From positions 1 through 64,000 of the IMG/VR virus record IMGVR_UViG_3300035698_016797: a stretch of 64,000 nt of DNA, one strand, 5' to 3'. Below are positions 8,201 through 48,249 of the stretch, piece after piece. A model generated the notes under the pieces. It was not told where the DNA came from, did no database searches, and saw nothing but the letters and a program-made list of their open reading frames with translations. This DNA comes from a virus. The translations under genes and the position numbers were made by a program. Every line of letters starts with the position of its first letter. Position 1 is the stretch's first letter.

Positions 8201-8395
8201 CTACTCCACTATTAGATCTGGAAATTTACCACAACAATGATCTTCACTTTTCAAGTCAAATTTCAAATCTTTCGAAATTATATCCAACACATGAAAAACG
8301 GTGTGGGCATGACAAGAACATGTCACTTTTTGATCTCCATCAATATAGAGTGCCCATGCTCCGTCACTAAATAACAACTTTACCTTTTTCATCAT
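8201..8395 (-). CDS. Hypothetical small protein
   Basis: 64 residues with CSCHAH and DHCCG near the two ends, which could chelate a metal. Starts after GGGAGAAAG and overlaps the end of the upstream gene. Function unknown. Confidence 0.6.
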   Translation of the reverse strand: MMKKVKLLFSDGAWALYIDGDQKVTCSCHAHTVFHVLDIISKDLKFDLKSEDHCCGKFPDLIVE

Positions 8396-8792
8396 CTTTC
8401 TCCCTGGCCATATCCATAAATGTATTCAAATAGGCTTCTGTGGTTCTTTGTGTTATTTCCGTTTCCCTTTCTGACTCGTCTACCACTTTTTCTATCCTTT
8501 CCTGGATCTCGTTCATAAACTCCATGTAGTCTCCAATACGTCTGCTGAATTCAGTTTCGTTTTCTGAACCTTCGTCCCAAAGCTGATGAAACCTTCCTAC
8601 AATCTCTGAAACGTCTGAAAGAAGTTGAGTGTAAGACTTCATTACATACTGACGGGTTGTAACCGGCCTCAGGTCTGGATTTGTAATCTCGAACGCCCTT
8701 ACAAACTCCTTCTCTGCAAACTCCAGCTTACGGGTCATTGCCGTCTTCAGTAAGAATTCATACCTTTCTCGTTCTGGTGATATATCAACCAT
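8367..8792 (-). CDS. Hypothetical coiled-coil protein
   Basis: 141 residues, almost entirely charged helix. The stretch MEFMNEIQERIEKVVDESER suggests a coiled coil. GGAGG site precedes the start. Function unknown. Confidence 0.7.
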   Translation of the reverse strand: MVDISPERERYEFLLKTAMTRKLEFAEKEFVRAFEITNPDLRPVTTRQYVMKSYTQLLSDVSEIVGRFHQLWDEGSENETEFSRRIGDYMEFMNEIQERIEKVVDESERETEITQRTTEAYLNTFMDMAREKDDEKGKVVI

Positions 8793-31354: not shown

Positions 31355-31431
31355 TCACGGGTAGCTCAGTTGGCAGAGCAGCTTCTGAAACATGGAGTGT
31401 GTCGGTGGTTCGAGTCCATCCCTGTGAACCA
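31355..31431 (+). tRNA. tRNA of uncertain identity
   Basis: Acceptor TCACGGG/CCTGTGA, D-stem GCTC/GAGC, T-stem GGTGG/CCATC with TTCGAGT loop, encoded CCA at 31429-31431. The anticodon arm is irregular: the best stem GCTTC/GGAGT encloses an eight-base loop TGAAACAT. If the loop is read as CTGAAAC the anticodon would be GAA (Phe), but then the stem pairs poorly. It is separated from the main tRNA cluster. Confidence 0.75.
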
Positions 31432-33850: not shown

Positions 33851-34228
33851 ATGATCACAGATTGGGAAGGTAGAATACGTGATATAATCGCGACCTGTGC
33901 GGGAGACTCTCACATTCGATTCAACATCACAACTCACGAATTCTCTTGTCGCATCACCTCTTCTGACAGCGTCGTTCTGTATTATGTAAACTGTGGATCT
34001 GACATACTCCATTGTAATGGCATCCCTGGAGTGTTTAATGGAGAACACATTTTGACCGATGCCAAGAGTGGAAAGTACAATTTAAAAAATGGCGTTAAGA
34101 GATTGATGGATACTGACATCTTTTTTAAGAGCAGTATTCAAGCACGTTCTGCTGCTTTTGCATGGATTCTCAACCATTATAGCAAAAATGCTCAAATACA
34201 CATTAATGAGGCATTTCAATGTATTTAG
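33851..34228 (+). CDS. Possible diverged member of the tandem family
   Basis: 125 residues from MITDWEGRIRDIIATCAG after AAGGGA. The C-terminus SSIQARSAAFAWILNHYSKN resembles the ends of the three following paralogues (A...F..W..N....I). Overlaps the next gene by ten bases. Confidence 0.6.
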   Translation: MITDWEGRIRDIIATCAGDSHIRFNITTHEFSCRITSSDSVVLYYVNCGSDILHCNGIPGVFNGEHILTDAKSGKYNLKNGVKRLMDTDIFFKSSIQARSAAFAWILNHYSKNAQIHINEAFQCI

Positions 34229-34536
34229 ACGTGTTTTACAAAACAAATCTGTCTGAGCAGGCATTTTTGGCTATTGACGAAGTTGCCCAAAGAATGCATA
34301 TTAGAATAGCCGGAAGTAGACGCAACGATGCATATATGTGTTATGGGAATTTTGGTGGGATCAAAAAATATCTGCGCCATCAAGGTGTTTGGAAAGAATA
34401 CTCTGTGGAAGATGGAGATATTGTAACCGGAGAAAATGCCGGTAATGTTTGGGACGCATACTATCCACACAGCAGAGCTGCGTTTTCCGCATTTCTCACA
34501 TGGTGTATGAACAATAAACAGATTCCAAGTCTTTAG
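34219..34536 (+). CDS. Tandem paralogue 1
   Basis: 105 residues. Shares with the next two genes the order: N-terminal helix, [IL][RN]I.GS, then YLR.[QD]G.W[KQ].[FY][ST].[ED]D..I, then W[DN][AG][YF]Y...[RQ]A...FL.WC.N[NH]K. Function unknown. Confidence 0.7.
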   Translation: MYLDVFYKTNLSEQAFLAIDEVAQRMHIRIAGSRRNDAYMCYGNFGGIKKYLRHQGVWKEYSVEDGDIVTGENAGNVWDAYYPHSRAAFSAFLTWCMNNKQIPSL

Positions 34537-34546
34537 GAGTGTTTCA

Positions 34547-34867
34547 ATGAGTAGATATCTGTCACTAAATTTTGAAACAGGCTTTGCTCCTGAAGCACTA
34601 GTCATGATTGATGAACTTGCCAGAGTTATGGATGTAGACATCAATCAAAGCAAAAGAATCAGCGCAAGTATGTGCGGTGGACGTATTGATGGACGCAGAA
34701 AGTCTCTGCGTAATGACGGCACATGGCAAGAATTTACTGATGAGGATCGGAAAATAGTAGTCTCAGAACATAGAGCAATTTGGAATGGCTACTTCCCATC
34801 TTATCGGGCTGTAATGGTTGCGTTTATTATGTGGTGCGTCAACCACAATAAGGTTTCAATCCTTTAA
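34547..34867 (+). CDS. Tandem paralogue 2
   Basis: 106 residues, same architecture as its neighbours (SLRNDGTWQEFTDEDRKIVV; WNGYFPSYRAVMVAFIMWCV). Product of local duplication; function unknown. Confidence 0.7.
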   Translation: MSRYLSLNFETGFAPEALVMIDELARVMDVDINQSKRISASMCGGRIDGRRKSLRNDGTWQEFTDEDRKIVVSEHRAIWNGYFPSYRAVMVAFIMWCVNHNKVSIL

Positions 34868-34878
34868 AGGTCAATATT

Positions 34879-35202
34879 ATGTCAGCATATTTGAGATTAG
34901 ACTTTGACCCTGGAATTTCAGTTGCTGCTGTTCATGCTGCAAGTGAATTTGGAAGATCTATTGATCTGAGAATTCAAGGTTCCGAAGGCTGTCTGTCATG
35001 TTCCAGCTATATCCGTAATGGTAGTAATGGACAGCAATATCTTAGAAAAGATGGGATTTGGAAAGTCTTTACCCCAGAAGACCGCAGAATATGCGATTCA
35101 GGACAAAGGGAAACTTGGGATGGATTTTATGGAAACAATCAAAAAGCTGTTACTGCATTCCTGATATGGTGCATTAACAACAAGAAGATAGGCGCATTAT
35201 GA
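34879..35202 (+). CDS. Tandem paralogue 3
   Basis: 107 residues, same architecture (YLRKDGIWKVFTPEDRRICD; WDGFYGNNQKAVTAFLIWCI). Function unknown. A further relative, apparently frameshifted, is at 60091-60448. Confidence 0.7.
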   Translation: MSAYLRLDFDPGISVAAVHAASEFGRSIDLRIQGSEGCLSCSSYIRNGSNGQQYLRKDGIWKVFTPEDRRICDSGQRETWDGFYGNNQKAVTAFLIWCINNKKIGAL

Positions 35203-38678: not shown

Positions 38679-39206
38679 ATGATTAACGTACTGAAAGATG
38701 GAGCAGAAAGTACCATTGCAGGTGGTACTCTTCAGGATCTCATCAAGATCTTGAGCATCGGAGATGACTGGCAAATCAAGGTTGGAGGGATGGTTATTCC
38801 AAGCAACTCCGAAATCGAATTTTCAGATGGACACGAAGTCGTCTTCTCTTCGCCAGCATATCTACGCCTCTCTGAGAGCGACGAGAGTGTGGACGATACC
38901 GCTGAGGGTTCCAACGCAACGTCACCGGCAATGGAAGCGGTTGCCGCAGCGGGAATTCTCACAGCCGATACGGAAGCAGCACTTGCCGAACAGTTGGCAT
39001 CGACACCTTCAATTCGCATCATAGTCAGGAGTAAATCAATTGTCCTGCTTAATGATGGAAAGCCAACCCTGCATGACAAACTGCCAACTCCGTCGAAACT
39101 CAAGACGGCGCTTCACGTCATGGATGTTTTCCCTCTGTTGGGAACCTCCATTATTGTATGGAAGAAGAAAATAGAAGATGAGAATTCAGAAACACCTACC
39201 CCGTGA
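38679..39206 (+). CDS. Ubiquitin-like (beta-grasp) domain protein
   Basis: 175 residues from MINVLKDGAESTIAGGTLQD after AAAGGAC. Residues 1-58 follow the beta-grasp order: two strands, helix (TLQDLIKIL), strand W.I.VGG, and SDGHEVVFSSP, like one unit of the triple Ubl at 39785. An Ala/Ser-rich linker leads to a second small domain (SIRIIVRSKSIVLLNDG). No C-terminal GG. It is probably a partner or a diverged modifier in the same locus. Confidence 0.6.
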   Translation: MINVLKDGAESTIAGGTLQDLIKILSIGDDWQIKVGGMVIPSNSEIEFSDGHEVVFSSPAYLRLSESDESVDDTAEGSNATSPAMEAVAAAGILTADTEAALAEQLASTPSIRIIVRSKSIVLLNDGKPTLHDKLPTPSKLKTALHVMDVFPLLGTSIIVWKKKIEDENSETPTP

Positions 39207-39411
39207 TCGTGGCAACTGTGATGGTTGTCTTGAAAGATGTAGATACTCCCTCTCTTCGCCGGAAAGCAAAGGGTGTATGAAAGCAGAAGGAGTAGCACGA
39301 ACAGGGGTAAAAGAACAATCGAACATTCGCAGTGAAGTTGGCAAACTAAATGCCAACCTCGCTTTAACCCTAGGTGTAGAGGAGGATAAAACATGCGCTG
39401 ACGGAAAATGA
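39178..39411 (+). CDS. Small Cys-cluster protein
   Basis: 77 residues. GNCDGCLERCRYSLSSPESK followed by GC supplies four Cys, as in some small iron- or zinc-binding proteins. Overlaps both neighbours by a few bases. Function unknown. Confidence 0.55.
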   Translation: MRIQKHLPRDRGNCDGCLERCRYSLSSPESKGCMKAEGVARTGVKEQSNIRSEVGKLNANLALTLGVEEDKTCADGK

Positions 39412-39761
39412 ACATTCTTCATATCAGCAACTCTAACATCAAGTCGTCACTCTTGTTTTGGAAGCAGATCCATTCTGCGATCCAAACAACTGTCCAATGG
39501 TCACCAGCTTTCAACCTGGAGGAGATTTTAGACCTTGATCTAAGTATGTATGACCTTGTCATCTACGAAGAAAAGGTAGGGCTTACTTCTCTGGCAGTAC
39601 AAATGTCTGAAAACCAACACTTGGCAGAAATCATTAACCATATCAACCATAAGCTCTATGTGGTAACGCGTAGGAGATCTACGCATTCCAATACTGGGGT
39701 AGCAGTTTTTACAAGTCGGAAAGATATTCTTTCTGCACTGCAAGCCCAAAATGCGCGATAA
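39408..39761 (+). CDS. Hypothetical protein
   Basis: 117 residues. An alternating alpha/beta pattern (MNILHISNSNIKSSLLFWKQ; MYDLVIYEEK) resembles a small flavodoxin-like fold, without a clear motif. ATGA coupling to the gene before. Confidence 0.58.
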   Translation: MNILHISNSNIKSSLLFWKQIHSAIQTTVQWSPAFNLEEILDLDLSMYDLVIYEEKVGLTSLAVQMSENQHLAEIINHINHKLYVVTRRRSTHSNTGVAVFTSRKDILSALQAQNAR

Positions 39762-39784
39762 GCGCAAAATTGTGGAGGTGACTC

Positions 39785-40417
39785 ATGTCACAGAACGTAG
39801 CAGTATCATTCGGCGTCAACAAGATGAACCTGGAAATCGCAGGCCAGAGCCTCGCCACCGTCGCGCATCAGCTGAAGAGCCTCTTGGGGCTTGCCGGTGG
39901 CGAAACCCAGAAAGTCAATGGTCGCGAAGCTGCCAATGACTACATCCTCAAGGCTGGCGACAGGCTTGAGTTTGTGAAGGTCAGTGGTCGCAAGGGTGCA
40001 AACGTCTCCGTGACGTTCGGCGTCAACAAGATGAACCTGGAAATCTCAGGCCAGAGTCTGGCAACGGTTGCTCACCAGCTCAAGTCCCTCCTGGGACTTG
40101 CCGGTGGTGAGACCCAGAAGGTCAATGGTCGTACAGTGGCCAATGACTACATCCTCAAGGCTGGTGACAGGCTTGAGTTTGTGAAGGTCAGTGGTCGCAA
40201 GGGTTCGATCGCCGTCAGTGCCGGTGTGAACCGTATGGACCTGGAGCTGGCTGGTAAGACTGTCAGCCAGGTTCGTAAAGAGCTGGCAAGCCTGCTCCAC
40301 ATCGACAATACGTGGAAAGCGGAAGTCAATGGTGCCACCTGTGGTGCCACCAAACGCCTCCGCAACGGTGACAGTCTGGAATTCATCAAGGATTCCGGCA
40401 CCAAGGGTGATGGCTGA
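39785..40417 (+). CDS. Triple-repeat ubiquitin-like protein
   Basis: 210 residues made of three tandem beta-grasp units of 69, 68 and about 73 residues. Each unit has VN[KR]M[ND]LE, a helix (SLATVAHQLKSLLG), VNG, and [LR].[AN]GD.LEF.K, ending SG[RT]KG. The pattern is that of PRTRC system protein C/ThiS-like ubiquitin relatives, which also end in GTKG. Units 1 and 2 are almost identical in protein and share long identical DNA tracts. After unit 3 only DG follows the KG, so a JAMM protease could expose KG ends, as in poly-ubiquitin. Modifier function is inferred. Confidence 0.8.
   Translation: MSQNVAVSFGVNKMNLEIAGQSLATVAHQLKSLLGLAGGETQKVNGREAANDYILKAGDRLEFVKVSGRKGANVSVTFGVNKMNLEISGQSLATVAHQLKSLLGLAGGETQKVNGRTVANDYILKAGDRLEFVKVSGRKGSIAVSAGVNRMDLELAGKTVSQVRKELASLLHIDNTWKAEVNGATCGATKRLRNGDSLEFIKDSGTKGDG
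39811..40410 (+). repeat. Three tandem Ubl coding repeats
   Basis: Units start near 39811, 40018 (207 bases on) and 40222 (204 bases on). Units 1 and 2 share the first 30 bases and the last 70 bases nearly exactly, but differ by synonymous changes in the middle, which suggests gene conversion or selection on the protein. Unit 3 is more diverged. Confidence 0.85.
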
Positions 40418-40448
40418 AACCATCAAATGCTATTGATGTAGCATTAGA

Positions 40449-40488
40449 GTCGGAGGGGGAATGTTCCCCTTCCGACTTTTTCTTTCCA
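40449..40488 (+). terminator. Intrinsic terminator after the triple Ubl
   Basis: GTCGGAGGGGGAA pairs with TTCCCCTTCCGAC (one G-U), followed by TTTTTCTTT. It may lower expression of the downstream E2/E1 genes relative to the Ubl. Confidence 0.88.
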
Positions 40489-40519
40489 AACTGCACTAAA
40501 ACATGGAGGAATAACCAAC

Positions 40520-41251
40520 ATGGCGGCTCCAACCACAGTTCGAACCTACATTCGTATGGAAGGTGAGAGCACTGAACTAGTAGAGGAACGAGTCAAAAAG
40601 AGCTTTGAGACTGAATCTTTTCTTGAAGCACTGAGGCTCGAAGCTGGACTATCGTCCGGTCTCATTCCTCAAGATTGCATCTTCTTCTTCCGTAAACCAC
40701 CAACATCGGCAGAATCCGGTGATGATGCAGTTTACGTGATGGAAAAAGAACCTCGTACGGTCACTATGCACTTTCGCAATTCCGGTGCCAGCGGTAGCGG
40801 AACCGTTCATCCACTCAAAGTGTCTCTTCCGTACTGTCTTTTCTTCATACCCGTTAGAGGTGGAAACATACAGGACATTTGGCCAGTATGTTCAAAGCAG
40901 CGCATCAAAACCATAGATGATCCCATCTTTGTGTTGCCGATACCAAACGTGTACGATTCGGGCCATGGAAGAATTTGTGTTGGAAATCTTCGCATCGACA
41001 ATGAGAGTCCCATCCATGTGAGACTTAACAAGTTGGTGTCGATGGTTTTCACGTCTGAGTTCAACTTGGATTTGACCACGATCTATCCTTCTGTGATGGT
41101 GAAGAAGTCTGGTGAAGATCCATCCATTTTTGGATGGGCACACAAGTCGGAAGGCAATTCGTTGTTTGGATGCTCCGATGAGGTAGAGTACCTGCCTCAT
41201 AATTACGGAACATTCAAAGGTCTAATGGGGAATATAGGATGTCAACTGTAA
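40520..41251 (+). CDS. E2-like protein (PRTRC protein B-type)
   Basis: 243 residues. The middle TVHPLKVSLPYCLFFIPVRG and then VLPIPNVYDSGHGRICVGN follow the PRTRC_B/Prok-E2_D pattern (P...F......W......PL...P..NV...G.[VI]C.G), which is described as an E2/UBC-fold member. Cys153 in RICVG is the conserved residue in the place where PRTRC_B has VCLG; whether it forms a thioester is unknown. Located between the Ubl and the JAMM/E1 genes. Homology is by motif, not by search. Confidence 0.65.
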   Translation: MAAPTTVRTYIRMEGESTELVEERVKKSFETESFLEALRLEAGLSSGLIPQDCIFFFRKPPTSAESGDDAVYVMEKEPRTVTMHFRNSGASGSGTVHPLKVSLPYCLFFIPVRGGNIQDIWPVCSKQRIKTIDDPIFVLPIPNVYDSGHGRICVGNLRIDNESPIHVRLNKLVSMVFTSEFNLDLTTIYPSVMVKKSGEDPSIFGWAHKSEGNSLFGCSDEVEYLPHNYGTFKGLMGNIGCQL

Positions 41252-41595
41252 AGCAGTTTGACAGAATATTGAGTGCAACTGAAAACATTCCAACCGTCAA
41301 TGCTCAACCAATCAGTTCCGTGTTTGGGGTTTTGACAAAAAACAGTGTTCCTCGGTTGCTGACAATTACCGGAAATGCGACAACTATCATGTTGGCGCAG
41401 TTTTTACTGTTCTTGCGCAGACAGTTGAAGCATGTAAAATGTTTGATGGTCCTTGACAACAAAAACAAGGGTCAAGTAGATCGCGCATTCGTTAAGGCTG
41501 AAGTGATTCAGAGAGACAGAGATGCTGCAAAAGCCATTGCGGCCAAGAAAAAAACCAAGGGTAAGACGGTCAAAAAGACCAAGGAGTTGTTCTGA
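41239..41595 (+). CDS. Hypothetical protein of the Ubl locus
   Basis: 118 residues, basic C-terminus (KKKTKGKTVKKTKELF). RLLTITGNATTIMLAQFLLF looks like a buried alpha/beta core. Overlaps both the E2-like and JAMM genes, so it is tightly coupled. Not recognised. Confidence 0.65.
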   Translation: MSTVKQFDRILSATENIPTVNAQPISSVFGVLTKNSVPRLLTITGNATTIMLAQFLLFLRRQLKHVKCLMVLDNKNKGQVDRAFVKAEVIQRDRDAAKAIAAKKKTKGKTVKKTKELF

Positions 41596-42680
41596 TGAAC
41601 AGATTCGTGACGTCCCAAGGCATCCCAATCATTACAATGGAAGATGGAGATGATGTGGAGTCCATTACGGACCCCATCTGTTTCATCGTTTCATCCAAAG
41701 GTTGCTTCGTAAAGAAGACCAATCGGTTCTACACTTCCGTAACCGCAACAGGAAAAGACGGAATCAGCGTGCTTGGAGAAGTCAAGCCGTTCGTATCTTT
41801 CGCAGTAACAAAGCTGCCGCTTCCGACATTCCGTGCCATTCGCCAGTTCTTCACTGATGTCTACAAGAAGATGCAATCTGAAGTGGCCATCATGTTGTAC
41901 TACGATTTCGATGCGAAGTTGTGGTTGTGGGTGGTTCCTGAGCAGAAGGTAACTGCCGCCAGTGTTGACTATGAGGAGACCGACAAATCCATCATCATCA
42001 ACCAGGACAACGAACGTATTGAAGGTCCGGTTCCAGACAGCTTTACGAAGCTCGGAAGTATCCATTCTCATGCAGGAATGGGAGCCTTCCATTCTGGTAC
42101 TGACAACGCTGACGAATTCCACTTCGACGGCCTACACATCACCATCGGCTCGTTCAACAAGGCAAGCAGTGGAGATTGTTCGTACTCTGCACGCTGGATC
42201 ATCGCCGGAGAAGAAGTGAAGACTGAAATCACGGAAGTGGTTGCAGATCTCGATCCTCCTGGAGAATACCCCGAAGATGCTCATGAAGCAGTAAAGAAGG
42301 GTACATCTGCCAGTCGCACTTATGGATCAGGACGTTCCATTGGTGCCGGTACAGGAAAAGGAGGTGCGGGTCAATCGGGAATAACAAACCCTACCCAGGC
42401 GGCGAAAGGCCGCCAGACGACGCAGACGACTCAGAGTGGCAAGCCTGGTACGAAACCTGGGGAAGGTGCGACGGTGGATACAACTGGTAAAGCTCCAGCG
42501 ACTGGTAAAGCTCCAGCGACTGGTAAAGCTCCAGCGACTGGTAAAGCTCCGACAACTGGGAAAGGTCCAGTGAAGGGTTTGACGGCAGGTGACACTCAAG
42601 CAGTGACTCCTCTCGTTCCGGCGAAAGGTTCAGAAGAAAAACCGGGCCAGGAAAAAAAAACCAAGACAGAGTCATCGTAG
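41595..42680 (+). CDS. JAMM/JAB metalloprotease-like protein (PRTRC protein A-type)
   Basis: 361 residues. GSIHSHAGMGAFHSGTDNAD holds the JAMM zinc site H157-x-H159-x7-S-x2-D170; E96 may be the catalytic Glu. These enzymes cleave isopeptide or linear bonds after ubiquitin-like proteins. The last 150 residues are low-complexity, ending in four near-copies of TGKAPA and a charged tail, probably a flexible adaptor. AAGGAG precedes the ATG, which overlaps the previous stop. A natural substrate would be the KG-ended triple Ubl. Confidence 0.82.
   Translation: MNRFVTSQGIPIITMEDGDDVESITDPICFIVSSKGCFVKKTNRFYTSVTATGKDGISVLGEVKPFVSFAVTKLPLPTFRAIRQFFTDVYKKMQSEVAIMLYYDFDAKLWLWVVPEQKVTAASVDYEETDKSIIINQDNERIEGPVPDSFTKLGSIHSHAGMGAFHSGTDNADEFHFDGLHITIGSFNKASSGDCSYSARWIIAGEEVKTEITEVVADLDPPGEYPEDAHEAVKKGTSASRTYGSGRSIGAGTGKGGAGQSGITNPTQAAKGRQTTQTTQSGKPGTKPGEGATVDTTGKAPATGKAPATGKAPATGKAPTTGKGPVKGLTAGDTQAVTPLVPAKGSEEKPGQEKKTKTESS
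42482..42560 (+). repeat. 18-base tandem repeat in the JAMM gene
   Basis: Four copies of ACTGGTAAAGCTCCAGCG (the last diverged) encode TGKAPA. Copy number could vary by slippage. Confidence 0.9.
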
Positions 42681-42747
42681 AGAATCCGGCGAGTGCGGGA
42701 ATACAATTCCTGAAAACGACTCCAGATCAGAGCAGTTCATAGAAAGA

Positions 42748-42834
42748 ATGGTCGAAAGGTTCGGCTCTGAAGTTGGAGACAATCTTCAAGAGGCTGTTGA
42801 GTTGGCACGAGCCAGCCAACAGTCAGAAGGATAG
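42748..42834 (+). CDS. Possible 28-residue peptide
   Basis: MVERFGSEVGDNLQEAVELA...QSEG, ending six bases before the E1-like start. The same frame is open for 60 more bases upstream without a good start. Weakly supported. Confidence 0.35.
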   Translation: MVERFGSEVGDNLQEAVELARASQQSEG

Positions 42835-42840
42835 AACGAT

Positions 42841-43551
42841 ATGTACAAGAATGTCATAGTTATTGGCTGTGGAGGAATTGGATCACATCTTCTTCCTCCG
42901 CTGACACGATTCTTCGCTTCAATGGAGAAAGAGAAGCGTCCCAAGGAAATGAGAATCGTTGATGGAGACAAGTATGAGCAAGGCAATGCCGATCGGCAAG
43001 AGTTTGTTGCTCGTCAAGTCAACCAGAATAAAGCAGAGGCGCAGAAGGAACGCTGTTCAGTCATTCACGAAGGAATGATGGACTACTATGCGTTCCCGGA
43101 ATACCTCGGTAGCGGCAATATTGACAGCATTATTGAAGAGGATTCAATTATCTTCATGTGTGTTGACAATCATGTTTGTCGCAGTATTGTGTCGAAACAC
43201 TGTCAAACGTTGAACAACGTTGCTCTCATCACGGGAGCAAACGAACTCACCGACGGCAACGTACAGATTTACGTCAGAAAAGATGGAAAGGATATGTCTC
43301 CTCCAATAGAAAAGAGACATCCTGAAATCAGCACGGCGAAAGATGGTGACAGATCAATGATGAGCTGTGAGGAGATTGAGAAGTTGCCCGGTGGTGGACA
43401 AATCATTCTGGTGAATGCTACCGCCGCGAATCTTCAATTTCAACTCGCTTGGGAATGGCTCTCTATCGGAAAGCTTCCTTTCGAGGAGGTATATTTCGAC
43501 GTTGAGTCAATCGGAATGCGTGGGGTGCCAAATGACTACTCCAAAAAGTAG
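42841..43551 (+). CDS. E1/ThiF-like adenylating enzyme (PRTRC ThiF type)
   Basis: 236 residues. VIGCGGIGSH (residues 7-16) is the Rossmann ATP loop; VDGDKYEQGNADRQEF (40-55) has the D..D, N49 and R52Q53 of the E1 active site; CVDNHVCR (107-114) follows. Candidate catalytic Cys176 is in MMSCEEIEKLPGGGQI, where E1 enzymes of the PRTRC group have a Cys before a GGQ. It would adenylate the C-terminus of the Ubl. Family assignment is good; substrate specificity is inferred from the neighbours. Confidence 0.85.
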   Translation: MYKNVIVIGCGGIGSHLLPPLTRFFASMEKEKRPKEMRIVDGDKYEQGNADRQEFVARQVNQNKAEAQKERCSVIHEGMMDYYAFPEYLGSGNIDSIIEEDSIIFMCVDNHVCRSIVSKHCQTLNNVALITGANELTDGNVQIYVRKDGKDMSPPIEKRHPEISTAKDGDRSMMSCEEIEKLPGGGQIILVNATAANLQFQLAWEWLSIGKLPFEEVYFDVESIGMRGVPNDYSKK

Positions 43552-44341
43552 CACAGCTCCTCCGGTAAAAAAGTCGGAAGCAAAAGCCAAAACAACCGCC
43601 AAGAAGGACGAGAAAAAAGCCGTAGTAAAGAAGGCTGACAAAGCTTCTGCGGCACCTATTCTGATTCCTGAAGAAATGAGGATTAGGTGTTTGTTTGTTG
43701 ATGGACTGGCTCCAAATCACGTAATAGTTGCCTACGGAGACGACAATGCGTCTTTGCTGAGCACTGGAGTGTGTGTTCGTGATCCAGAAAACAATAAACG
43801 GTTTTATCATATCACACAAATGTTGGTTGGTTTCACCCCAGAAACGGCCGGTCCTTACTTTCAGCCGTTGACTGGTCAAATGTTGCTGGCATCATTGAAG
43901 CATCACAAGGCTAAACTGACATTTCCTTTGACTGTATTTAGAGTTGTTCATCTGTGGGAAGATGGGAACATCATTGGATGGTCAAAAAGAAGTCAAGAGA
44001 AAGCCTTGGAGCGCAGTACTTCGATGTATCTCTGTGCACAGTGTAAAATTTCTGTGACAAATGGAGTTTACGCTCCTGGATGCTCTCCGTATTCAGAGGT
44101 TATAGCTAAAGCTGTAACCATGGCAGAGAGTAAAGTTGCGTTTCACAATCTGTTGGCAACTCGTGTGATTGAAGGCAACCACGATTTATGGTCGTTCTTG
44201 TCGGCCAACGCCTACCTTGATAGTCTGTGTACAAGGTGTCGTCTCTTGGCAATAAAAAGCCTAACTGGAGAAATAGTTACTCAGATTGCGACAACAGGAA
44301 GAATGAAACCGGTGTTTCAAAACGAAAAGGAGGTTGAGTAA
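43532..44341 (+). CDS. Hypothetical protein of the Ubl locus
   Basis: 269 residues. The first 35 residues are a Lys/Ala-rich linker (KKSEAKAKTTAKKDEKKAVV); the rest is globular with possible zinc site (CAQC...GC; LCTRC). Overlaps the E1-like stop. Could correspond to a PRTRC accessory gene but shows no recognisable motif. Confidence 0.68.
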   Translation: MTTPKSSTAPPVKKSEAKAKTTAKKDEKKAVVKKADKASAAPILIPEEMRIRCLFVDGLAPNHVIVAYGDDNASLLSTGVCVRDPENNKRFYHITQMLVGFTPETAGPYFQPLTGQMLLASLKHHKAKLTFPLTVFRVVHLWEDGNIIGWSKRSQEKALERSTSMYLCAQCKISVTNGVYAPGCSPYSEVIAKAVTMAESKVAFHNLLATRVIEGNHDLWSFLSANAYLDSLCTRCRLLAIKSLTGEIVTQIATTGRMKPVFQNEKEVE

Positions 44342-45270
44342 TGGCTCAACAAGTAGTCTCTCATACCGTTTATATGACGGCAGAGACGGATGTAACTTTA
44401 CCACAGCTGGAAGGAGCAAACGAAGCTCTCGTTGAAGAGCTTAGAGTACTTCTTCTTGGCAATAAGAAGGTTGAAGCGGTTCAGAAGTTTCGTCTGGCAA
44501 CAGGCTGTTCTCTGAAGGATGCTGTAGACCGACTGATTATCGGCTGGTGGATGGAGTTTGCACAAAGTCTCATTGATCCGTCAAAATACCCAGAAAAGTG
44601 CTGTTTCAATTGTGTTGGAACGTGCGGCAAACTTGCCAATCTTCAATCTACAAATGGAGCAAAACTTTGGGACATTGACAATCAGATTCCATGTGGAACC
44701 AATTGCAGTGTGTTTATGACCCTTGAAGCCCTCAAGAAGAGTTTGGTGATCAAGGATAGCGCAGTACAGGTAAAACTTACCAACTCTGCCAACAGCAGTG
44801 TGACGAACATCATCGTTGACACTCCTATTGTGAAGACAGAAAGAAGCAATCGTGATGGCAAGGTTCTTGAAACGAAGTTTGTGATCCACTCAAAATCACA
44901 AGTTGTAACAAAAGTTTCAGGTGCAATCTGCAAACTGTTTCTTGCCGGTTTCCAATGGTCCTCAACCAATGGTTTCGAAGGAACTCTGACTGTTGGGACA
45001 TGTGAACCAAAAAGCAAGGAAACGTGGGAAAAATATCTTGAAAGAGCTTCTGAGGAAGTAAGAAAAGCTCGTGAGTGCGTCACCGAAACGTACCAGGCAA
45101 TGGATGAAAAGACTTTGTTCGCGGCTATGGAAAAATTCCTGACAAAGCGTGGACTGAAGAATGTTATTGCCAACTATAACGGTGATATTGAGTCTCTGTG
45201 TGACGACATGTTCCCAGATCAGGAACTGGTGTATGTTGCCATTGAATTCGCAAGGGAAGATTTGTCATGA
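44341..45270 (+). CDS. Hypothetical Cys-rich protein of the Ubl locus
   Basis: 309 residues starting after AAAAGGAGG. CCFNCVGTCGKLANLQSTNG then CGTNCSVF gives six Cys in the middle; otherwise alpha/beta. Not recognised. The TAATG overlap with the preceding gene implies coupling. Confidence 0.68.
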   Translation: MAQQVVSHTVYMTAETDVTLPQLEGANEALVEELRVLLLGNKKVEAVQKFRLATGCSLKDAVDRLIIGWWMEFAQSLIDPSKYPEKCCFNCVGTCGKLANLQSTNGAKLWDIDNQIPCGTNCSVFMTLEALKKSLVIKDSAVQVKLTNSANSSVTNIIVDTPIVKTERSNRDGKVLETKFVIHSKSQVVTKVSGAICKLFLAGFQWSSTNGFEGTLTVGTCEPKSKETWEKYLERASEEVRKARECVTETYQAMDEKTLFAAMEKFLTKRGLKNVIANYNGDIESLCDDMFPDQELVYVAIEFAREDLS

Positions 45271-46169
45271 TTGTTATGATTGACCAATACGTTAAATTGC
45301 CAGACACTTCCGATTTCAAACCCATTGTTCCGAAGAATGCCAATGAAGGAAAAATCATTCTTCAATTCAAAACGACCTTTCGGAATCCTGAGACGCTCAG
45401 TATTATGAAAGATTGTCTGTTGTCCGCCGGTCATGAATGTGAAAGTTCTCGCATTGACCAGAAATGGTTAAATGAAGCCTTCACGCCAATCATGCACGAA
45501 ATGATCAAAGGGTTTGTTATATGGGGACTGCCGACCTTCATGAAGAAGGCAAGAGAGCATTCTCCAAGAGGGTTCGGAAGTGGTAGTAAAAGACGAGTTT
45601 TTATGAGAAGCCTCTTTGATCAGTTTTTGGAAGAGGGTTTTGCCTTAAAGTCGGCAGAAAACTTTGCACTCTCATCATTCTCTTCTATTGGATGGAGAAT
45701 GCCTGAAAGTATTCGTGTTAGAGGACAAGGTTGGACTACTCAAATTGCTCGCTCTTTCGGAAACTTTATTAACAATGTAAACCGTGGCAGAACGTCACAT
45801 TCAATCCTCAACGTGCTAAGAAGTTGTACTCCATACCCGTATGTGACAGAAGAGGGAGATCAGTTCGTACTTCCAAACAGTGACAATAAAAATGTGGTTG
45901 ATGCATGTCATCAGTTCACTAACATTATGAACGGCGTCATGGATAACACGAACGCAATATTCAACGAGATTGAATGGGTCTCTGACACCATGTCAGACAT
46001 GAATCCTTGCGGTAGAGCAGGATGTAACGAAGGAAACATGTGTTCAAGCTGTTACGATAGGCTGTACGATCTTGTTGATGGATGTGCCGGAAAGACTGAC
46101 GCTAACAGGTATTTTGTGACAGCTGTTGAAAATCGAGAAACCTTTGATAGCATAACGCCGTCAGAATAA
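45267..46169 (+). CDS. Hypothetical protein with C-terminal Cys cluster
   Basis: 300 residues. The end NPCGRAGCNEGNMCSSCYDR can bind zinc (C..C....C..C). The N-terminal two-thirds is helical and not recognised. ATGA coupling upstream. Confidence 0.68.
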   Translation: MIVMIDQYVKLPDTSDFKPIVPKNANEGKIILQFKTTFRNPETLSIMKDCLLSAGHECESSRIDQKWLNEAFTPIMHEMIKGFVIWGLPTFMKKAREHSPRGFGSGSKRRVFMRSLFDQFLEEGFALKSAENFALSSFSSIGWRMPESIRVRGQGWTTQIARSFGNFINNVNRGRTSHSILNVLRSCTPYPYVTEEGDQFVLPNSDNKNVVDACHQFTNIMNGVMDNTNAIFNEIEWVSDTMSDMNPCGRAGCNEGNMCSSCYDRLYDLVDGCAGKTDANRYFVTAVENRETFDSITPSE

Positions 46170-46971: not shown

Positions 46972-48249
46972 ATGCTGAATCAATTGTCACGACAGTTTGG
47001 AGAGCTGCCAGTAGAACTTGTTGCTAAAGATCAAAGCGACATTCCGATAGTGTCGTTTATTCAAGCTAGGCATGGGCCGGTATTGCCTGGTCGAAATATA
47101 AACGAGAAGGCATTTGGCCAACTACTTGAACTTCTGCTCGAAGGCAAGATTGTCAGAGTTAGATGTAATATAGATGCTTTTGCTCAAGAGATGGAGCATC
47201 TGAGAAAACTTGCATCTAAAAATGTTCTCATGGTATCTGCTACGGATATTTGGGAACATAATAGAGGTGAAGTTTACAAATTCAGGTTTAACGCATCAAG
47301 CGAATACTATATGGGACTTGATGAATTAGTAAATCCTGTTGATATAATTGCTTCTGTTCTTGGAGTGGAGGGAGAACTCCTTACAAGTCTTATGGCAGAT
47401 ATTTCGTCTCACTACAATCGCTTTCCATTGACAAAAAGGGATGGTTCGCAAAGATGGATTAACGCTCCAGACGATGATCTGAAAGGGGTTCAGAGACGCA
47501 TAATGAACAGAATGCTTTATCGTGGATGGGCAACTCCATGTGCTCACGGATTCATTCATGGAAAAAGTATTAAGACAAACGCAGAACGTCATGTTGGAGC
47601 CAAGGTTGTCGTCAAAATGGACATATCCAAATTCTTTGACAACATAGGAATTGACAAACTTAATACAGCCTTTGTTCCTCTGCTGAAAGCAGAAGAGCTT
47701 TTCACAATCAATTTTATCTCATCGTTGTGTACTCTCAACGGGGTCACCCCACAAGGAGCACCAACGAGTCCCGCACTATCAAATCTCGTGGTAAGAAACA
47801 TGGACTTTGCCCTCATGGGTTTAGCCAGAAAACATCACGCAGTCTACACGAGATATGCTGATGATTTGGTATTTTCCTCGAAAGATAATCGTGCATTACC
47901 ATCAATCATCCCTTTGGTAATGAACGTTGTCAACTCGAATGGGTTCCGAATCAACATGAGAAAAACCGGAGTCTTTCGCGACGGTGGAAGAATGCCGGTA
48001 ACCGGACTGGTAATCAATAAACATACAAACGTTCCTCGTAAGGAGCGTTATAAAGTACGTGCGGAGCTTCATAACATTGCAACTGGAAGAAAACCTGCAA
48101 GCGAAGAGGATCTTCAGCGTCTCGCCGGAAAGGTGGCGTTCATCAATATGGCGAATCCGCAACAGGGAGCACGTTTTGATAGTTTGATGACAGCAGCAAA
48201 GGCTGGTGCCGTACAATCAACGGAAGGTGCGGAAAACAATGACAGTTGA
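46972..48249 (+). CDS. Retron-type reverse transcriptase
   Basis: 425 residues. From residue 145 the RT core shows: RWINAPDDDLKGVQRRI, AHGFIHGKSIKTNAERH (N203-A-x-x-H207), VVKMDISKFFDNI (D217), GVTPQGAPTSPALSNLV, YTRYADDLVFS (YADD 295-298), GFRINMRKTG and PVTGLVIN (VTG 343-345). NAxxH and VTG are the diagnostic retron motifs; QGxxxSP excludes diversity-generating elements. The first 140 residues are an unrecognised N-terminal domain. AAGGAG starts the gene. It would copy msr-msd RNA into a branched RNA-DNA molecule. No ncRNA lies directly upstream; see the four RNAs downstream. Confidence 0.92.
   Translation: MLNQLSRQFGELPVELVAKDQSDIPIVSFIQARHGPVLPGRNINEKAFGQLLELLLEGKIVRVRCNIDAFAQEMEHLRKLASKNVLMVSATDIWEHNRGEVYKFRFNASSEYYMGLDELVNPVDIIASVLGVEGELLTSLMADISSHYNRFPLTKRDGSQRWINAPDDDLKGVQRRIMNRMLYRGWATPCAHGFIHGKSIKTNAERHVGAKVVVKMDISKFFDNIGIDKLNTAFVPLLKAEELFTINFISSLCTLNGVTPQGAPTSPALSNLVVRNMDFALMGLARKHHAVYTRYADDLVFSSKDNRALPSIIPLVMNVVNSNGFRINMRKTGVFRDGGRMPVTGLVINKHTNVPRKERYKVRAELHNIATGRKPASEEDLQRLAGKVAFINMANPQQGARFDSLMTAAKAGAVQSTEGAENNDS

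Follow-up and report, generated by a model that had tools for sequence, protein, structure and literature searches.

A PRTRC-like cassette with a multiplied ubiquitin-like gene, predicted to conjugate protein tags, in a tailed phage and its relatives

The first 64 kb of a 181,030-bp IMG/VR virus record (IMGVR_UViG_3300035698_016797, labelled G000 in our set), hereafter the window, carry on their + strand a series of genes centred on a multiplied ubiquitin-like protein (Ubl), an E2-like protein, a small helical protein, a JAMM metalloprotease and a ThiF-type E1. Outside the window, the record codes for the large terminase (TerL), a portal protein, DNA polymerase III alpha, DnaB and UvsX; given these packaging, portal and replication genes, the genome is that of a tailed phage. 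An initial annotation of the sequence had described nine genes here, starting at 38679, as a PRTRC-like locus. Its open reading frames, including the start of the first gene, are confirmed at their positions and on the + strand.

The poly-Ubl gene (39785-40417) encodes three head-to-tail beta-grasp units. Units 1, 2 and 3 occupy 39785-39997, 39998-40204 and 40205-40408 and end in SGRKG, SGRKG and SGTKG, respectively, with a two-residue tail, DG, after the third. In Pfam the protein matches ThiS (8.1e-10) and TGS (1.2e-8), while a Ubl profile finds three domains at 1e-16 to 1e-17; the Ubl is thus indeed multiplied within one gene of a phage genome, as had been proposed. Among the other carriers described below, the gene holds 1, 2, 3 or 5 units, nearly all with a GxKG end. 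Units 1 and 2 of the window share 61 of 67 residues, with a nonsynonymous distance (dN) of 0.06 and a synonymous distance (dS) of 0.59; unit 3 is more diverged (dN 0.69). Duplicated units are identical at 58 of 58 residues in locus L025, where 27 codons nevertheless differ (dN 0.02, dS 1.7), and at 61 of 62 in L022 (dS 0.8). For near-identical pairs inside one gene, dN/dS is about 0.01-0.1, a rough figure where dS is near or above 1 and hence saturated. Given that the protein is held constant while synonymous sites differ, the repeated units are under purifying selection, and this is the pattern that interchangeable, separately released tags would give. Eukaryotic polyubiquitin likewise consists of head-to-tail, near-identical units of constant protein sequence and diverged synonymous sites, although the phage Ubl ends in KG and has no recognisable similarity to ubiquitin in sequence beyond the beta-grasp matches. 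Phages are not alone in multiplying the Ubl, since a Cytobacillus plasmid carries one of two units.

The E2-like gene lies at 40520-41251, and its product resembles Prok-E2_D (Pfam, 2e-5) and, very weakly, PRTRC protein B (TIGR03737, 0.083); Prok-E2_D also matches 20 of the 28 E2s of relatives. The protein has a PxPN motif ending at Asn143 and a cysteine at position 153 (codon 40976-40978), a spacing like that of the HPN...C active site of canonical E2s. Overlapping its end is the gene for the small helical protein (41239-41595), which has a remote relative at the same place in the Planctomycetota locus L103 (phmmer 0.0098, hhalign E 0.00086). The JAMM gene follows at 41595-42680, with E96, H157, H159, S167 and D170 as its predicted catalytic set; residues 8-189 match PRTRC_A (TIGR03735; 1.5e-6, 28 bits against a cut-off of 102), the protein also matches Prok-JAB at 0.0016, and all 24 JAMMs of relatives tested match PRTRC_A. 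Low-complexity TGKAPA repeats lie in its C-terminal tail (42480-42620). The E1 gene (42841-43551) carries a GxGxxG motif, D41, R52, K64, D109 and Cys176 (codon 43366-43368). It matches ThiF at 3.9e-18 and, over residues 4-228, PRTRC_ThiF (TIGR03736) at 3e-19 with 69 bits against a cut-off of 145. Furthermore, a profile of the family matches ubiquitin, SUMO and NEDD8 E1 structures, at best with 6e-13, while in PADLOC the window E1 matches only E1-E2 models, weakly and in the adenylation part only.

Loss of the E1 and JAMM catalytic residues in related phages had been named at the outset as the observation that would refute the reading as a ubiquitin modification locus. We therefore compared 78 distinct E1, 72 E2 and 76 JAMM sequences, mostly from phages and with gapped or partial rows excluded. 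In E1, Lys64 (77/77), Asp109 (77/77) and Cys176 (76/76) are kept throughout, and GxGxxG, D41, K64, D109, R114 and C176 are all essentially invariant. Asn143 and Cys153 of E2 are present in all 72 sequences. In JAMM, Ser167 and Asp170 occur in 76 of 76 and His157/His159 in 74 of 76, both exceptions arising because a group I intron splits the motif. The reading survives this comparison. The introns themselves lie inside the His-x-His motif of L036 and L037, at 8261-8501 (Rfam RF00028, E 3.7e-14 and 2.4e-15).

The name given to the locus had been PRTRC-like, after a plasmid system comprising proteins A, B, C, D, E, F, ParB and ThiF. E1, JAMM and E2 are remote homologues of ThiF, A and B, and the likeness extends to the order B-A-ThiF and to a small Ubl ending in KG. 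The profile searches suggested earlier give matches to ThiF, A and B that lie far under the NCBIfam cut-offs, and leave C unmatched: no window protein matches PRTRC_C, and the window Ubl consists of three units and is not a single small protein. The 181-kb record contains neither ParB nor D nor E, whereas a Methylomonas plasmid, included as a positive control, gives 9e-123, 1.3e-51 and 1.3e-8, respectively; protein F matches neither in the record nor in that control. Strict identity with the PRTRC system is ruled out by the missing ParB, D and E, and the phage cassette also differs in its low scores, its multiplied Ubl and its tailed-phage setting. This predicted machinery can fairly be named a 'PRTRC-like conjugation core', but not a 'PRTRC system'.

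Relatives of the locus are numerous. By tblastn, the E1 is matched in four cultured phages, namely Salmonella phage Arash and Vibrio phages D69, D181 and D148, as well as in PRTRC-type plasmids, and the Arash and D69-group loci prove to hold the same gene set. The D69 E1 is annotated as 5'-truncated. The Arash Ubl gene (L003 107-307; OQ632216.1), which ends in RTGTKG, is unannotated, GenBank having another frame there. IMG/VR was also scanned with alignments of JAMM and of E1, which added about 80 viral loci, the same contig being counted more than once in some cases. The productive scans were those with smaller phage alignments; the window E1 as a single protein gave no match, and an Arash/D69 E1 alignment gave two loci only. 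A genome scan also found the cassette in Planctomycetota. Annotation with hidden Markov models places E2, JAMM and E1 contiguously on one strand in nearly all of the approximately 95 fetched loci; such recurrence shows that the cassette is not a chance arrangement. In L074, L080, L089 and L100 there are at least two E2-like genes per cassette.

The loci fall into three layouts. Layout A, the Arash type, occurs in phages of 168-187 kb and reads Ubl (1-5 units)-helical-small-E2-JAMM-E1. In layout B, on contigs of up to 277 kb, the E2 lies within a large protein of 820-880 residues, accompanied by JAMM, E1, a SAP-Ubl fusion and a second E1-like protein. Both type B loci that were read adjoin what appears to be an RNA polymerase beta-prime gene (L033 5177-15087, L034 1840-11165). 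RNA polymerase beta was considered as a feature common to carriers and rejected, being absent from the 181-kb window record. Layout C, Ubl-E2-small-JAMM-E1, is that of the window, of a 184-kb contig (L069) and of two Planctomycetota genomes (L102/L103), one of whose cassettes sits on a 3.26-Mb contig. These five genes, and not the nine once described as a unit, form the conserved core of the window subgroup. After the Planctomycetota cassettes come an acidic, Cys-containing protein and a DUF6744 protein (L102 9571-11842, L103 9549-13027), and L103 additionally has an AAA ATPase, possibly an unfoldase partner.

In the E1 tree, the four type C members form one group (99/96) next to type B, and the opposite side holds the Arash-type phages and plasmid PRTRC; several branches are long and the deep order is unsure. 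The window TerL is found in 0 of 21 other carriers, and the Arash major capsid protein (MCP) is absent from the window record; of 15 other carriers tested, 12 have a TerL of the broad phrog_2 family. Descent of all carriers from a recent shared phage ancestor is thus unsupported, and the cassette is common to phages without close kinship, owing to either transfer or great age. Relatives exist in dozens of large, unrelated phages and in at least three phage lineages, those of the cultured phages Arash and D69 among them. The locus is one case of a feature widespread in phages.

In one clade the cassette can be called core. When members were chosen by an unrelated gene, that for the Arash MCP, the resulting set consisted of the four cultured phages and seven metagenomic contigs longer than 100 kb. 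JAMM is present in 11 of 11, and E1 as well in all four cultured phages. The cassette is core to the Arash-like clade. Proteomics of purified Arash particles lists Gp246, 247, 248, 249 and 251 (PMC10585845). The numbering of that table may be one off relative to GenBank after gp239, but E1, JAMM and E2 are covered either way.

We conclude, with a probability of about 0.78, that the locus is a phage-encoded, PRTRC-like Ubl conjugation cassette of the type 6d kind, the basis of a JAMM-processed poly-Ubl cascade active during infection. This reading is drawn from the gene order, the homology of the enzymes, the near-invariance of the catalytic residues and of the Ubl end, the purifying selection and the recurrence in independent lineages. 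Following established Ubl chemistry, JAMM would cut the poly-Ubl precursor after each G-x-K-G into single tags of approximately 70 residues; the E1 would adenylate the terminal glycine of a tag and accept it on Cys176; the E2-like protein would next receive the tag on its Cys153 and join it to an amine, probably a lysine, of target proteins. JAMM may also take the tag off again.

Several observations weigh against this conclusion. The tag ends in KG and not in GG. A Foldseek search of the PDB with an AlphaFold model of the E2 (predicted local distance difference test score, pLDDT, 86; 28-row alignment) gave no significant match and no E2 among the matches listed, so the UBC fold lacks independent confirmation; among viral models, three unnamed Caudovirales proteins match at E <= 0.001. 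No His downstream of the Cys is invariant among the 28 E2s aligned, whereas a conserved one is described for type 6d E2s. Finally, the Arash proteomics lists 116 of 252 proteins, including cytosolic enzymes such as ligases and reductases, so that carry-over is possible (PMC10585845); hence, these data indicate expression and not necessarily packaging.

Could the Ubl instead be a sulfur carrier? Its units would then act as ThiS- or MoaD-like thiocarboxylate donors, activated by the ThiF-type enzyme for tRNA or cofactor thiolation with no tagging of proteins. ThiS is the best Pfam name for the units, and the E1 resembles ThiF and MoeB too. However, an E2-like protein with an invariant Cys and a JAMM accompany the Ubl almost everywhere, no rhodanese or other sulfur gene is present among the cassettes read, and sulfur carriers seldom come as multi-unit precursors, all of which makes this pathway improbable. 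Far less probable still is a functionless remnant of a plasmid PRTRC locus: no named relative is nearer than the plasmid PRTRC sets, but ParB, D and E are all gone, while the active sites are invariant, the window repeats remain under purifying selection and the viral spread is wide.

Two further proposals share the conjugation chemistry set out above and differ only in the target. We think that modification takes place late in infection and falls on proteins of the phage or the host, virion or assembly proteins being about as likely as host defence proteins; taken singly, each of the following versions is less likely than not. In the first, JAMM and Ubl would serve particle assembly, tagging or tag release setting its timing. 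The precedent of lambda gpI/gpK and the Arash proteome suggest it: according to a conference report (PMC12908700), gpK frees gpI of its Ubl domain by cleavage while the tail tip is assembled, and the Arash E1, JAMM and E2, which are listed in particles and core in the clade, adjoin structural genes. Yet the possible carry-over applies here too, type B cassettes have an RNA polymerase gene next to them, and the lambda mechanism needs neither E1 nor E2. In the other, the phage would tag host defence proteins or incoming rival virions, as counter-defence or superinfection exclusion, a host Bil system in reverse. This is suggested by the host Ubl systems (Bil, type II CBASS) that act in phage conflict, and it suits a cassette common to unrelated phages and plasmids. 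Presence in 11 of 11 members across hosts would, however, be unusual for a moron-like defence gene, and E1 alone among the cassette proteins gives a notable match in PADLOC.

The predicted conjugation cascade can be set beside several known systems. Bil (bacterial ISG15-like) and type II CBASS with Cap2/Cap3 follow a similar logic of a Ubl or substrate, E1, E2 and JAB, but those are host defence systems. Lambda likewise pairs a Ubl (the TAPI domain of gpI) with a JAMM (gpK) for tail assembly; it has neither E1 nor E2, and its single Ubl is fused to a structural domain. In the accessible part of Iyer et al. 2006 (PMC1779556), type 6d operons combine a Ubl with a terminal Gly, a helical protein, an E2, a JAB with an N-terminal domain and an E1, with E1 and JAMM unfused, as here; those operons were reported in bacteria, and the phage cassettes differ in the downstream His of E2 and in having 1-5 Ubl units. 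Type 6e, with one to three Ubl repeats, shares the tandem arrangement in one gene, but has an inactive RWD/E2-like domain and a JAB usually fused to E1. The same part of that work sets out the operon types of bacteria and also the Ubl of lambda; a phage cascade of E1 and E2 does not feature in it.

In the literature searched, whose coverage leaves out many subscription papers, we found no paper linking PRTRC or Ubl cascades to phages, and no functional study of plasmid PRTRC loci. Bacterial Ubl systems are known as mobile or defence genes. The distribution of the cassette suggests that many phages may chemically tag proteins during infection. We give even odds to the broader proposition that several unrelated large-phage lineages run their own complete polyubiquitin-type pathway, a core infection step in at least one clade and a previously undescribed viral counterpart of ubiquitin signalling. 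If true, protein tagging would belong to phage biology, with complete poly-Ubl cascades among the core genes of tailed phages. Cultured carriers (Arash and the Vibrio D69 group) make the cassette directly testable, and plasmid PRTRC loci, which share the machinery, become approachable through it.

Genes on either side of the core have a weaker claim to membership. Upstream, 38679-39206 (+) encodes a 175-residue putative degenerate Ubl-like protein with no KG end. It had been called a two-part Ubl; the first part, approximately 75 residues, is marginally Ubl-like (E 0.0014 against 3 targets, a score reached by 0 of 500 shuffles), while the second is not matched by the Ubl profile. Pfam and NCBIfam searches give no family for it, and a single-sequence fold is uninformative (pLDDT 35). 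Between it and the poly-Ubl gene lies a 117-residue protein (39408-39761, +), for which family searches and the cassette loci provide no relatives. Membership of both is unproven, as is that of three translationally overlapping genes on the same strand downstream (43532-44341, 44341-45270 and 45267-46169), the first of which begins within the E1 gene according to the translations; none has a relative in any cassette-bearing locus. Compared with the neighbours in Arash, D69, L069 and Planctomycetota, the window's unknown genes show no homology except for the small protein at 41239-41595.

A reverse transcriptase gene at 46972-48249 (+), to which the set was said to be joined, is retron-type (RVT_1 7.7e-25, PADLOC RT_XIII 1.7e-78), but the link is one of adjacency only and is not conserved. 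Searching the 8-kb flanks of the cassette loci, we found a related RT (1.7e-26) at only one other distinct locus, in one other phage (L020/L021, 15398-16666), approximately 4.7 kb after E1. No Rfam retron RNA matches between 30 and 52 kb of the window; to our knowledge, most retron RNAs are not in Rfam. Elsewhere in the window there are a tRNA gene (31355-31431; Rfam tRNA 2e-6) whose anticodon ARAGORN reads as four bases, aaac, and which may encode a frameshift tRNA or an unusual one, and three tandem paralogues of about 106 residues each (34219-35202). In another carrier, L040 12225-19748 (record 76-84 kb) holds an apparent cluster of radical-SAM, DegT-type aminotransferase and glycosyltransferase genes.

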